Below are positions 15,151-59,543 of a stretch of 64,000 nucleotides of DNA, one piece after another. The notes beneath the pieces were generated by a model. That model made no database searches. It was not told the origin of the DNA and saw only the letters and a list, made by a program, of their open reading frames with translations. Numbering within the stretch: position 1 is the first letter of the stretch; the number at the start of each line of letters is the position of its first letter. The DNA is from Pseudobdellovibrio exovorus JSS (GTDB lineage: Bacteria; Bdellovibrionota; Bdellovibrionia; Bdellovibrionales; Bdellovibrionaceae): contig NC_020813.1 in the NCBI RefSeq assembly GCF_000348725.1, positions 310,001-374,000 on the forward strand. Reading direction: 5' to 3'. A program made the position numbers and the translations under genes.

Positions 15151-16218
15151 CTAGTTTCCGTGTTCGTCGACGATGTCGCCGACTAGTTCTTCCAGAATAT
15201 CTTCTAATGTCACAATTCCTAATGTGGTGTGATCTTCTGTATTACGAACAATCGCCAAGTGGAAACGGCGCTCTTTAAACTGCTTCATCAATTTATCTTC
15301 TGGCATGTGTGCTGGAATGAAAAACGGAGGACGCATTTTTTCTTCAAAAGTGGCATTGGCTTCCACATCATGAAAGCGAATATCTTTCATATTCAGAATA
15401 CCGATCACATCGTTCATGTCCGTGCGACAAACAGGAAAACGAGTGTGGTTTCGACTGAGGATAACTTGTTTGTTTTCTTCAAAACTGCGCGACAAAGAAA
15501 TATATTGAACCTTTTCAACAGGAATCAAAATATCTTTAGCGAGCTTATCCGAAAAGCTGAAAGCCTGTTGGATGATTTGTGCTTCGCTATCTGAAATCAC
15601 ACCGCCAGTTGTCGAATGTGAAATCACCATGCGTAGCTCATCTTCACTCATCAGATCTTCTTTGCTTTGGCGAAAACCAATGGATTTCAGAATCAGATTG
15701 GCTAACGCGGTGAAAGCATCAATCAAAGGTTTAGAAATCAGATAGAAGTAACGAAGTGGTTTAGCTAAAGCCAAAGTGACTTTTTCAGCCCTTTGGATCG
15801 CCATGCTTTTAGGGACAAGCTCACCCAGTACAACGTGCAACATCGAAATGATGAAGAACGAAATACCAGTTGCGATAATATGGAATAGCTCCACGCGGAA
15901 AGGTGGATTTGGGAACATGATTTTTAGAAGAGTGTAGAACGACTGTTCACCGATCCATCCAAGCCCCAGACTGACTAAGGTGATCCCTAATTGGCAGACA
16001 GAGAGGTATTCATCTAATTTGTTAACGACGGATAAGGCAAGGCTAGCGGTTTTGTTGCCGTTATTGGCTAATTCTTCTAGGCGTGTTTTGCGTACTTTAA
16101 CGATGGCGAATTCTGCGGCGACAAAGAAAGCGTTCAAAAAGACAAGAACGATGGCGAAAAAGATAAAAATAAAGGTCACTAATAAACTTTGAGAACTGGG
16201 GTCTGGGTCCATATACAT
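15151..16218 (-). CDS. CNNM/CorC-type membrane protein with CBS pair
   Basis: The protein has an N-terminal CNNM (DUF21) domain with about four membrane segments, including LNAFFVAAEFAIVKVRKTRL, then two CBS domains (to VTLEDILEELVGDIVDEHGN). The family includes Mg/Co efflux and hemolysin-C-like proteins of the inner membrane. The usual C-terminal CorC_HlyC domain is missing. The frame is open further upstream, but the ATG pair at 16218/16212 is chosen: CAGGA lies next to it and CNNM proteins begin with the first membrane helix. ATG 16317 is a less likely alternative. Confidence 0.85.
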   Translation of the reverse strand: MYMDPDPSSQSLLVTFIFIFFAIVLVFLNAFFVAAEFAIVKVRKTRLEELANNGNKTASLALSVVNKLDEYLSVCQLGITLVSLGLGWIGEQSFYTLLKIMFPNPPFRVELFHIIATGISFFIISMLHVVLGELVPKSMAIQRAEKVTLALAKPLRYFYLISKPLIDAFTALANLILKSIGFRQSKEDLMSEDELRMVISHSTTGGVISDSEAQIIQQAFSFSDKLAKDILIPVEKVQYISLSRSFEENKQVILSRNHTRFPVCRTDMNDVIGILNMKDIRFHDVEANATFEEKMRPPFFIPAHMPEDKLMKQFKERRFHLAIVRNTEDHTTLGIVTLEDILEELVGDIVDEHGN

Positions 16219-16558
16219 CCTGGGTTGAGTTAAGGCTTGATCTAGTGCCGAGCCGAAGTTCGTGAGTTTAGTGAAGATGGGAAAGGCTGTCATAACGCAG
16301 ATTGTAAAGGTCTTCATGTTTCGTATAGGGGCGATTGTGGTGCTATCTGCCAATCTTTCCACCAAGCGTGGGGGCTTTTTTTCTCGGCTAGTTTTTAAAA
16401 AAATCCCATAAACGAATAGAAAGTATCTCAACTCAGAATTTGGATTTCTGCTATTTGGTCTCGTGATTGCTTCAGTAAAAAGCAAGGGCGCGGCGGTAAG
16501 TCCTAAAAGATCGGGACGAACTCTGAAGCCACAAAAAATTAATTAAAGGAGAACGTCC

Positions 16559-16813
16559 ATGGCACAAAATCAACAACAACCGCAGCGTCAGCAGCAGCAA
16601 CCGCAACAACAAAAGCAACAGCAAGCCCAGCAGGGTAAGCAGAACAATCAAGACAACCAAAAAAATGTTCAGAAACCACAATCCCAACAGGTTTCGGGAC
16701 AGCACAACAACCAAAATCAGAGAAGTCAGCAACAGAACAAAGGTTCTCAGCAGACATTCTCTTCAACCAAAACTAAGTCATTTAATAAGTTACCTACTCA
16801 AGGCAACGCTTAG
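16559..16813 (+). CDS. Q/N-rich low-complexity protein
   Basis: An 84-residue protein in which I count 33 Gln and 11 Asn, so over half is Q/N; most of the rest is Lys, Ser, Pro and Arg. There is no signal peptide, membrane segment or cysteine, and it should be disordered and basic. The gene is supported by AAAGGAG seven bases before the ATG and by a strong terminator after the stop. It is short and monocistronic. Function is unknown; a nucleic-acid-binding or condensate-forming (prion-like) protein is possible. Open frames on the opposite strand are mirror images of the CAG/CAA repeats. Confidence 0.8.
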   Translation: MAQNQQQPQRQQQQPQQQKQQQAQQGKQNNQDNQKNVQKPQSQQVSGQHNNQNQRSQQQNKGSQQTFSSTKTKSFNKLPTQGNA

Positions 16814-16825
16814 TTTCGGTTTTCG

Positions 16826-16859
16826 GAAACCGGCTTTATGAGGGCCGGTTTCTTTTTTT
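16826..16859 (+). terminator. Rho-independent terminator
   Basis: A 9-bp stem (GAAACCGGC with GCCGGTTTC), nine-base loop and a run of seven T follow the Q/N-rich gene. Confidence 0.93.
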
Positions 16860-16910
16860 ATTTTTTCTAATAACTTTGCGCTTGCAGGTGATTTCTTTTA
16901 CCATGTGCGG

Positions 16911-17975
16911 ATGAAAAAAATTCTATCTGTTTGTTCTGCAAAGCTATTCCTATTTTTTCTATTTCTTTCTACACAGTCTTTCGCCTCAGATTGCCTTGTA
17001 ACTCAAGGAGCTTTGGATATTGGTTCTGGCTCTACGAAATCAGTTGTAGCTATCGTTGATACATGTCAGAAAAAAATTCATAAAGTTTTATTCGAAGAAA
17101 ATATGGCGGTTCCTTTCAGTGAAGCCCATGAAACTTCTGCTGATCAAAAGATTCCAGAGGCCTTTGTTAAAGCACAGTTGCCACGAATGAAAGAGTTAAG
17201 TCAGAAAATGCGTCAACATGGGGCTGTGTCGATCCACGCTTTAGCGACATCTGTTTTTCGTCGTGCGAAGAATGGCGAGGATGTGATGAAGAAAATCTCG
17301 GAAGCGATTTCGGGTCCAGTGCAAATGATCTCGCAAGAAGATGAAGCCCGCTTAGGATACTGGTCAGCCTTAGCACAGCGCCCACCACGTCAGGGCGAAC
17401 AAGTCGTCGTCTGGGATATTGGTGGTGGTTCTATGCAGATGATCACTCAACCTAAAGCTGCTGAAACAGGTTTGACGATTTATCAAGGTGAACTGGCGGC
17501 GGTAAATTTCAAGAATCGTGTTATCAACGAACTTCAAAAAAAAGATGCTAAAACACAAAATTCGCCGAATCCTCTAGGTGCGCAGTGGACCGATGCGGTG
17601 AAACTTTCAGAAACTTATGCAAGCGCCCATGTGCCCTCAGAGTTTCAAAAGCTATCACGTCAGGTAACATGGATTGGGATCGGGGGTGTTTTGTACAACT
17701 CGGTTCGCGAGCAGACAAAAGTAAAAAACACCTACCAAGTTAAAGATTTACAAAAAGCTTTGAAGAAACGTGCGAAGCTCAACGATCAACAACTAGGTGG
17801 CGATTATGCTGCAACAGATGTGACGAACTTGGCTCTGGTTGCAGGCTTCATGCAAGCCCTGAAGATAAAAAAAGTTGAAACAGTAAAAGCCTCGTTAGCT
17901 CAAGGCTGGTTGCTGTTTCAACTGGATGAACAAGATGATAAACAAAGTAATGAAAATACCGAAAAGAAAAACTAA
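16911..17975 (+). CDS. Exported Ppx/GppA-family phosphatase-like protein
   Basis: The ASKHA-fold motifs of exopolyphosphatase/pppGpp phosphatase are present: GALDIGSGSTKSVVAIVD near residue 35 and VWDIGGGSMQMI near 165, plus ISQEDEARLGYWSAL holding the catalytic Glu. Only the phosphatase core (about 350 residues) is present, as in short Ppx proteins. It starts with a signal peptide (MKKILSVCSAKLFLFFLFLS...SFAS), so it should be periplasmic, which is unusual for a family acting on cytoplasmic polyphosphate or pppGpp. A GTG at 16905 is the alternative start. Promoter not seen. Confidence 0.85.
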   Translation: MKKILSVCSAKLFLFFLFLSTQSFASDCLVTQGALDIGSGSTKSVVAIVDTCQKKIHKVLFEENMAVPFSEAHETSADQKIPEAFVKAQLPRMKELSQKMRQHGAVSIHALATSVFRRAKNGEDVMKKISEAISGPVQMISQEDEARLGYWSALAQRPPRQGEQVVVWDIGGGSMQMITQPKAAETGLTIYQGELAAVNFKNRVINELQKKDAKTQNSPNPLGAQWTDAVKLSETYASAHVPSEFQKLSRQVTWIGIGGVLYNSVREQTKVKNTYQVKDLQKALKKRAKLNDQQLGGDYAATDVTNLALVAGFMQALKIKKVETVKASLAQGWLLFQLDEQDDKQSNENTEKKN

Positions 17976-17988
17976 GTCCAGCAATGAA

Positions 17989-18483
17989 CTATTGAATCGA
18001 GACAGGTTCCCATTCCGCTGAGTAGACTTGCCAGCCATCATCATCTGTCTTTTCCATTTGTAACGAGAAATCGTAATAAGACGCACTTTCAGGAATAAGA
18101 TCTAAGGCACCCGCATTGCGGGCCCCTTGGGCCAAAGCGGCTTGAAAAGTCAGATGGGCTTTCGGTGGATCTGTTGTTATATCCAAACTTTTCACCTGTG
18201 GTTTTAAGGTATAAACAGAGATCGCACCGCCACGTAACATATAGGCGGTGATGATTCCACCCACATCTTGAAAGGTTCTGTTTTTCGAATCGGAATAGTT
18301 TTTAGAAATGAATTTTTTAATTTCTCCACCCTGTTGTTTTTCAGCTAAGGCTGCAATATGGGCGGGAAGTGCTAACAAAAAGGCGCGTTCATCTGGTTTC
18401 GGGCGAGTCGCACGATAGATAGCGAAGCCTAAAACAAAGATAACGATCAATACAGCTATGTTTTTGAGGGTTTTGTTTTGCAT
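17989..18483 (-). CDS. Membrane-anchored protein of unknown function
   Basis: The 164-residue protein has an N-terminal membrane helix (NIAVLIVIFVLGFAIYRA) followed by an exported domain of about 135 residues with alternating strands, perhaps NTF2-like (HLTFQAALAQGARNAG, YYDFSLQMEKTDDDGWQVY). GGAGG stands just before the ATG at 18483. It converges with the Ppx-like gene and diverges from rlmN. No family was recognised. Confidence 0.75.
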   Translation of the reverse strand: MQNKTLKNIAVLIVIFVLGFAIYRATRPKPDERAFLLALPAHIAALAEKQQGGEIKKFISKNYSDSKNRTFQDVGGIITAYMLRGGAISVYTLKPQVKSLDITTDPPKAHLTFQAALAQGARNAGALDLIPESASYYDFSLQMEKTDDDGWQVYSAEWEPVSIQ

Positions 18484-57980: not shown

Positions 57981-59543
57981 ATGAAAACGATTTTTGGTGT
58001 GATGTTGGCATTGGCTTTAACAGGGGCTTTTACAACGGCGAAGGCTCAGTCATTAAGTAACAAAATTCATAACCCATATTCGTCCTTACGTGCACTGGGA
58101 ATGGGAAATGCCTTTACTGCGGTTGCAGATGATTATTCTTTGATTATGTACAACCCTGCTGGTTTCGCTCGTAAGAAACACAACGAAGTACAGATCACTT
58201 TAGCTGGTGGCGGTGTTTCTTCTAAAACGATGACAGTAGTTGATGATATTAAAAAAGCTTCAGATACTCCGGGTACGGATGCAGATAAGGCGCAAGCGGT
58301 ATCGGATGTATTGGAAAAATATTATGGTGAGTCTTTAGGTGGAAAACTACAGGCTTTAGAAATGTTTTGGATCCGTCGTAACTGGGGTGTCGCTATTTTA
58401 CCTGCGGACTTAACCGTTGATATGTACATCAATAGACAAGTTGGACCGGCATTAGATTTAAACGTTAAAGGGGATAGCATCTTAGCGTTTGGTTATGGTC
58501 ACAATTTAACAAGCACATTGGATGTGGGTATTACGGCAAAATACATTCATCGCGTTTCTGTAGAAGAAATTCTGCCTGCATTTGAATTAGCTACAGACCC
58601 TAACATGCTCAGCTCAAAGCGTTTCCGCGAAGGAAATAAAATTGATTTTGACTTAGGCTTCATGTGGACACCAGATTGGTTCACCAAACGTGTGGCTCGC
58701 CAAAAAGTAGAATCGCCAGCCACAACAACATCTACGTCAGTAGCTCCACCAGCAGAAGCCACTGCAGTTGACACGGCACCTGTGGCAGAAACAGCTCCAG
58801 AGACTCCAACTGAAGACACGGCACCAGCAGAGACGACGCCAACAGAGGCAACAGCCGATGAAACGCGTACGCCACAGTCTGAACAACCTGAACAATCTGA
58901 AACTGTAGTGGCGCAGCAAGGACCAGAAAATACAGTTCCAGAGCCAGTTGGTGCTATTACTAATTCTGCCCCAGGGACAACTCCGGTTCCTGTGCCTCAA
59001 GATATTCAACCGAATTTATCAGAGCCAGCACAAGCAGAAGAACCAGTTTCTGCTCCGGCGGAACAAAAACCCGCTGTGGCCCAAGATGGATATGACGTGG
59101 TGCCATCTTATCCGCTGTCATTTGGTGTCGTCGTTCATAACGTTATCGGCGGAGACTTTTCACAGTCGAAAATGATAAACAAAGATGCTGTAGACAAGCC
59201 AAGTAAATTGGAAAGAACAGTGGACGTTGGTGCTCAGTACAAAATCGTAGACTGGGATGATTTTGCGATTCGTTACATGATCGATTTCCGTAATTTAGGT
59301 TACCCTGGTGCCACAACATTTAATCGCGTGTTTCACACAGGTATCGAATTCGATTACTCGCCAAACACATGGTTTAAAACACAGTTGCGCGCGGGCCTAA
59401 ATCAGATGTATTTCACAGCCGGAGCAAGTTTCCTTTTCGGCGTTCTTAATTTAGATATCGTGACTTATGGTGAAGAGGCTGGAACATTAGATCAAAAACG
59501 CGAAAGCCGCGTAACCGCCGCTAAAGTGGGATTTAATTTCTAA
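57981..59543 (+). CDS. Outer-membrane protein with long Pro/Thr/Glu insert
   Basis: The 520-residue precursor has a signal peptide (cleavage near AKAQ) and begins like the PorV/OMPP1-type barrels: SSLRALGMGNAFTAVADDYS and NPAGFARKKH. Barrel strands run to about residue 235. Then comes about 130 residues of low-complexity sequence rich in Pro, Thr, Glu, Ala and Gln, and then further barrel strands to a C-terminal Phe (AAKVGFNF). The insert may form a surface loop. Possible ligand: hydrophobic molecules, by family. AAAGGAAG precedes the ATG. Confidence 0.82.
   Translation: MKTIFGVMLALALTGAFTTAKAQSLSNKIHNPYSSLRALGMGNAFTAVADDYSLIMYNPAGFARKKHNEVQITLAGGGVSSKTMTVVDDIKKASDTPGTDADKAQAVSDVLEKYYGESLGGKLQALEMFWIRRNWGVAILPADLTVDMYINRQVGPALDLNVKGDSILAFGYGHNLTSTLDVGITAKYIHRVSVEEILPAFELATDPNMLSSKRFREGNKIDFDLGFMWTPDWFTKRVARQKVESPATTTSTSVAPPAEATAVDTAPVAETAPETPTEDTAPAETTPTEATADETRTPQSEQPEQSETVVAQQGPENTVPEPVGAITNSAPGTTPVPVPQDIQPNLSEPAQAEEPVSAPAEQKPAVAQDGYDVVPSYPLSFGVVVHNVIGGDFSQSKMINKDAVDKPSKLERTVDVGAQYKIVDWDDFAIRYMIDFRNLGYPGATTFNRVFHTGIEFDYSPNTWFKTQLRAGLNQMYFTAGASFLFGVLNLDIVTYGEEAGTLDQKRESRVTAAKVGFNF

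Follow-up and report, generated by a model that had tools for sequence, protein, structure and literature searches.

Small bacterial proteins rich in Gln and Asn include the gamma-type small acid-soluble spore proteins (SASPs), in which basic residues are interspersed along the chain. A survey of N/Q-rich disordered (NQID) proteins, mostly Q-rich regions by its account, counted 27,472 of them in 6,469 bacterial proteomes, or 4.3 per proteome, and describes prion-like domains as sporadic in distribution within the set (PMC6400439). The prion-like domain of Clostridium botulinum Rho is reported to be part of an RNA-binding termination factor, to be predicted by PAPA and to have an N-rich amyloid core that includes Phe (PMC4703818). 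Closer in lineage, Bd0108 of Bdellovibrio bacteriovorus is described as a small disordered lifestyle-switch protein that carries a signal peptide and works together with Bd0109; its B. exovorus homologue is named there as A11Q_2208, a different gene from the one considered below (PMC4267844).

The window, by which we mean the whole stretch of 64,000 nucleotides that was analysed (bases 310001-374000 of the complete 2,657,893-bp genome of Pseudobdellovibrio exovorus JSS), contains on its plus strand a Q/N-rich open reading frame (ORF) of 84 aa, correctly placed by the initial annotation (Table 1). We tentatively interpret it as a genuine, probably monocistronic and lineage-restricted gene for a disordered, strongly basic, Q/N-rich chain that may bind polyanions. 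The ORF has the interval between a divergent CNNM/CBS-domain gene and a same-strand Ppx/GppA-type gene to itself. As had been proposed, it has a start signal and a terminator of its own: AAAGGAG precedes the ATG by 7 nt, and a terminator with a 13-bp stem begins 11 nt past the stop codon. The stem has a folding energy of -18.3 kcal/mol (z -3.29), a stability equalled in 0 of 200 shuffles, and the Ppx/GppA-type gene starts about 50 nt downstream of the terminator. The further claim that these clear signals show expression holds as far as their presence goes, whereas expression from them is suggested rather than shown. A scan of 2.7 kb (15500-18200) gave no sigma-70-like promoter for the plus strand.

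Table 1. Coordinates of the features discussed; positions are those of the window except for Rho
Feature	Position	Strand	Basis or remark
Q/N-rich ORF, 84 aa, stop TAG included	16559..16813	+	ORF listing, composition, codon usage, AlphaFold2
Q/N tract, residues 2-65	16562..16753	+	composition; pLDDT 54-58 per ten-residue block, residues 1-60
C-terminal 19 residues TFSSTKTKSFNKLPTQGNA, candidate short linear motif	16754..16810	+	pLDDT 70-83 per block, residues 61-84
Imperfect simple repeat (CAGCAA)6 within Q tract	16589..16624	+	repeat reading
Ribosome-binding site AAAGGAG, 7 nt 5′ of ATG	16545..16551	+	sequence reading; 464-kb pattern count
Intrinsic terminator, 13-bp stem 16825-16853 then T-run	16825..16861	+	terminator scan, folding
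CNNM/CBS-domain gene, divergent	start 16212	-	domain search
Ppx/GppA-type gene, signal-peptide-like start	16905-17975		sequence reading and domain search
Rho	L200:1201-2967 (G000:C1:75500-77266)		Q/N/G/R-rich N-terminal region

The surroundings of the ORF were also examined. The 5′ leader was considered as a structured RNA and dropped: no Rfam match reached gathering level across the window, the only four matches in 16210-16910 fell far below gathering scores, and the leader folds with a z of -0.93. The matches to the leader that were inspected in other genomes (L041, L045) represent a common ribosome-site context, TTAATTAAAGGAGA, ahead of unrelated genes, and ATTAAAGGAG occurs twice in the 464-kb sample of the own genome, at the ORF and at one other site, both times 7 nt before an ATG. 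Between the two divergent genes, at 16356-16382 (+), there is a terminator-like hairpin with a T-run after it but no obvious plus-strand gene ahead of it. Ppx/GppA-type proteins were found, at E up to 1e-15, in 22 of the 66 family genomes (own included) and in 0 of 13 other genomes of the same genus.

The Q+N composition of the predicted product is extreme for the sampled part of the genome. Gln and Asn account for 44 of the 84 residues (52%), which bears out the earlier statement that they make up over half; the counts are Q 33, N 11, K 8, S 7, P 4, R 2, F 2, D 1 and E 0, with no Tyr or Trp. The richest 40 residues hold 27 Q+N, and an 80-residue window holds 43. In the background of 466 called ORFs, the Q+N fraction averaged 0.089 (sd 0.025, maximum 0.18) and the richest 60-residue window contained 17. 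This background was drawn from 464 kb of the same genome, namely the window and 20 stretches of 20 kb, one of them deliberately placed over the ferredoxin locus; the ORF caller was crude and greedy and chose a longer overlapping frame over the Q/N-rich ORF, which was therefore compared from outside the set. With 10 Lys/Arg residues against 1 acidic residue, the protein has a pI of 11.3, a net charge of +8.6 at pH 7 (about +9) and a GRAVY of -2.3. The basic residues had been described as regularly spaced, but 8.7% of 10,000 random placements of 10 basic residues were equally even.

A single-sequence AlphaFold2 model of the product contained no secondary structure (mean pLDDT 61.9, pTM 0.15). 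The last 24 residues were modelled with higher pLDDT per block than the rest (Table 1), and both Phe residues and the sole Leu lie within the last 19. The protein thus combines N/Q bias with predicted disorder, as NQID-type proteins do, the disorder being assessed here with AlphaFold2. The C-terminal pattern TKSFNKL was rejected as a family signature: across 66 genomes its degenerate form had 6 matches and the reversed control had 5, which we treat as chance. Matches to the pattern in L057 and L060-L062 are out of frame or antisense within unrelated genes, and a small ORF of the same genus (L042, G054) matches at 23 of 24 bases.

We consider it likely that the ORF is a translated gene, because its start signal is found mostly at gene starts, its codon usage fits its frame best and its terminator is strong. 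Counting both strands of the 464 kb, there are 14 AAAGGAG-N5-9-ATG sites. Ten of them are close to, and in frame with, the start of a called ORF that is 100 aa or longer; the remaining four lead into frames of 1, 5, 57 and 84 codons, and the 84-codon frame is the Q/N-rich ORF. Relative to genome base composition, codon usage was best in the ORF frame among all six (+0.225 per codon), the second-best frame lying on the minus strand (+0.160 per codon), and the synonymous-codon log-ratio was +9.8 in the ORF frame and -29.2 to +1.3 in the remaining five. Relative to the region's own base composition, all six frames fell below zero, the ORF frame still being the best (-0.074), and these sub-zero scores are a caution for the coding claim. 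They would also suit an origin without a gene, in which a CAA/CAG/AAC-rich stretch grew by slippage and stayed open through composition only. The imperfect (CAGCAA)6 array, two partly open antisense frames that overlap the ORF region (86 and 75 codons, TTG starts) and the empty homologue search point the same way. Such an origin is nevertheless unlikely in view of the AAAGGAG-N7-ATG start, the preference of both codon usage and synonymous-codon choice for the ORF frame, and the strong terminator so close to the stop codon. Were the ORF untranslated repeat-derived DNA, the finding would be an ordinary one.

The ORF is probably lineage-specific. Protein searches returned nothing convincing in the 66 family genomes or in 140 genomes of the order (own included in both), the other sequences reaching E 0.04-0.83 (five in the family) and 0.039-0.050 (three in the order). 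Pfam gave 0 families at E up to 1, NCBIfam no meaningful match, and PHROGs only E 1.8 and 2.1 at best. None of 198 pattern stretches in the genome_contigs collection and none of 34 in viral_contigs was confirmed as a relative, a scan of genome_contigs with the Ppx neighbour found nothing, and the plasmids yielded no relative; a DNA search of phage records gave three records with short 82-88% matches. Protein searches are weak for low-complexity queries, and low-complexity masking probably blinds them: the 84-aa query missed ferredoxin tails that blastn found. The CNNM orthologues (L008-L011) have no adjoining Q/N-rich ORF of at least 50 aa, and the 1.5 kb inspected on each side of the 21 other Ppx loci of the family contained no ORF that was 50 aa or longer and exceeded 25% Q+N. 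At the RlmN orthologues (L152-L154), there is only a 39-codon antisense frame with 26% Q+N, inside a 490-aa ORF.

With blastn, the region 16440-16860 matched the C-terminal tails of ferredoxins in two family genomes, at E 1.2e-10 in G006 (81% over about 60 bases) and at E 1.7e-5 in G003. Such scores mean little here, because an unrelated poly-Q protein in G043 reaches E 1.0e-7. Both of the tailed ferredoxin orthologues that were scanned have a Fer2 domain, and the gene directly upstream of the G006 ferredoxin is presumably tyrS. This 2Fe-2S ferredoxin was found in 64 of the 66 genomes of the family (E up to 1e-15). Among the 30 best-scoring loci, 12 encode a C-terminal tail that is 50 aa or longer and has a Q+N content of 30% or more. 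L118 (29.6% Q+N) falls outside this count, and inspection of L119-L121 showed no tail of this kind. Eight further loci were chosen for their long open frames, and five of the seven that were parsed have such a tail, four of them from the genus of the window. As cut by script (L093-L130), tails range from 9 to 187 aa between species; the counted tails contain 33-52% Q+N, and the 14 that were scored contain 12-21% K+R and 0-2 aromatics. This variation suggests that a low-complexity tail has been gained or lost repeatedly.

The ferredoxin of the own genome is tailless, ending in MILAQKKPEKPQ, and the in-frame stretch past its stop is not Q/N-rich. Together with the nucleotide matches, this would fit an ORF that was derived from the Q/N-rich ferredoxin tail or replaces it in trans. 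By Smith-Waterman comparison, however, the mean score of the ORF over all 14 tails was reached by 150-184 of 1,000 local shuffles. The four same-genus tails, a subset chosen post hoc, lay slightly above local shuffles (31-53 of 1,000 reached their mean). For the single tails L038, L124 and L125, the score was reached by 1, 0 and 1 of 200 global shuffles, and by 7, 9 and 21 of 500 local shuffles of width 10, respectively. Because scores against local shuffles are unexceptional over the 14 tails, the likeness is taken as compositional, one of kind, and does not establish descent. Derivation from a tail, or its replacement, is also hard to square with the comparable score of low-complexity DNA against the unrelated poly-Q protein, with the open frames of only 132-151 codons in 8 of the 12 other same-genus genomes that have the ferredoxin, and with the few genus stretches inspected, in which no free-standing counterpart was seen; we consider it quite unlikely.

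The initial annotation had called the product prion-like, and its Q/N tract could be imagined to switch to a self-propagating amyloid, as proposed for C. botulinum Rho, given its high Q+N density (43 in an 80-residue window) and no predicted fold. This is very unlikely. In an uncalibrated PAPA-type script, the ORF scored -0.14 and its best single 41-residue window -0.07, short of the PAPA threshold, which is given as 0.09 (PMC5402983); by the same script, the Rho region scored -0.08 and the 14 ferredoxin tails lay between -0.16 and -0.48. The chain contains 10 basic residues and 4 prolines, its only 2 aromatics lie outside the Q/N tract, and it is rich in Gln, in contrast to the C. botulinum Rho amyloid core, for which 67% Asn and the presence of Phe are reported (PMC4703818). 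Of the prion-like label, the Q/N richness is what stands, and the description of such proteins as rare in bacteria was overstated in the light of the survey counts given above (PMC6400439). In character, the ORF product appears closer to a sticky chain that binds RNA or another polyanion than to a prion. In the Bdellovibrio literature, no paper on prion-like or low-complexity ferredoxin sequences was found by title.

We give hardly any credence to a leader-peptide role, in which ribosome pausing at Gln codons under glutamine shortage would control terminator read-through into the Ppx/GppA-type gene. In its favour, the ORF is small and codon-biased, with its stop 11 nt before the terminator and that gene about 50 nt beyond, and part of the terminator's 5′ arm is shared with a small alternative hairpin (-6.0 kcal/mol). 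Against it, a leader peptide of 84 codons would be a long one, the majority of the Gln codons are far from the terminator, the terminator (-18.3 kcal/mol) faces no antiterminator of comparable stability, and the 1.5 kb on each side of the 21 other Ppx loci of the family showed no such Q/N-rich ORF.

Rho of the own genome has a Q/N/G/R-rich N-terminal region that includes QQGSQQQQQHRQFRKFGNNQGGG, QQQQQHRQFRKFGNNQ and HRHQNNNNNQNRYNNNQRRDFRDNRR; a similar-looking protein is encoded at L210 (G048). Rho condensation via a disordered region has reportedly been observed in Bacteroides. A 12-codon K/N/Q/H/R/S pattern gave 21 matches at 14 places in the own genome, all of which were inspected, and among these places Rho and the ORF are the ones that are Q/N-rich in frame in a plausible gene. 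The place at 58768-58908 of the window is a 46-codon frame with 30% Q+N inside a 520-aa ORF. The pattern does not capture all Q/N-rich regions, and it is unselective, because in 14 genus genomes it matched at least 302 times against at least 972 times for the reversed control. In the other genus genomes, pattern loci among the matches listed and 10 further chosen stretches were inspected; a 55-codon frame at L169 lies within a 206-aa ORF, on the opposite strand. A protein at L211:2506-3906 (G044), which resembles FtsZ, contains a Q/M/P-rich region, MQPMQPQQPVNHAAQTMQQAQQQAAMYAQMMQQQQ.

Under the interpretation that we favour, a disordered polyanion-binding chain, we read the ORF product as a polycation whose charges are set apart by polar residues, because it has 10 basic residues against one acidic residue, no predicted fold and a sequence that is half Gln/Asn. 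We infer its expression, polyanion binding and purpose. The scattered Lys/Arg residues of this flexible chain would touch a polyanion, RNA in the first place, or else nucleoid DNA or polyphosphate; Gln and Asn would serve as soluble spacers capable of hydrogen bonding, and one specific contact may come from TFSSTKTKSFNKLPTQGNA at the C-terminus. RNA is a common partner of basic disordered chains. Polyphosphate is a weaker second candidate, suggested by the adjoining Ppx/GppA-type gene; the link is only weak because the terminator separates the two genes and the Ppx/GppA-type protein appears to have a signal peptide. The product might thereby be a free-standing counterpart of the low-complexity Q/N + K/R regions on family Rho and ferredoxin, and might tune ribonucleoprotein solubility or condensation. 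Similar regions at 12 of the 30 best-scoring family ferredoxin loci and in the own Rho argue for this interpretation. Against it, the Q/N composition could come from neutral repeat expansion, with the (CAGCAA)6 array inside, and the likeness to the 14 ferredoxin tails stays within local composition.

A more far-reaching version, to which we assign a slim chance, is that the lineage keeps a common low-complexity Q/N + K/R 'phase' (Rho, the ferredoxin beside tyrS and the free peptide) in one RNA-rich condensate, the function of the ferredoxin tail having moved in trans in this species. If true, it would be a natural case of a disordered region acting as a separate molecule. Provided that it is translated, the ORF would in any case offer a minimal test case, a complete bacterial protein consisting solely of a Q-rich, basic, disordered chain, and would let tail function be probed without a folded domain in a lineage with species-variable ferredoxin tails and a Rho region of this type.

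Among the systems compared, the ferredoxin Q/N tails resemble the ORF product in Q+N, in K+R and in their few aromatics, and they vary between species; they differ in being fused to Fer2, in being richer in Pro and in lacking the TFSSTKTKSFNKL end, whereas the ORF has no Pfam domain. With the gamma-type SASPs the product shares its small size, its Q/N richness and its interspersed basic residues, but it has no Pfam match at E up to 1, and the lineage is not, to our knowledge, known as endospore-forming. Like Bd0108, it would be a small disordered protein of a predatory bacterium, from which the signal peptide of Bd0108 and the partnership with Bd0109 set it apart, going by the published description (PMC4267844). 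Like the domain of C. botulinum Rho, it is a Q/N-rich disordered bacterial sequence (PMC4703818), but it is Q-rich, basic, domainless and, by the PAPA-type score, below the PAPA threshold. It shares N/Q bias and disorder with the NQID set and, as that set is described (Harrison 2019, PMC6400439), differs in having no detected family and no folded domain, being in its entirety a free-standing and strongly basic protein of 84 aa.
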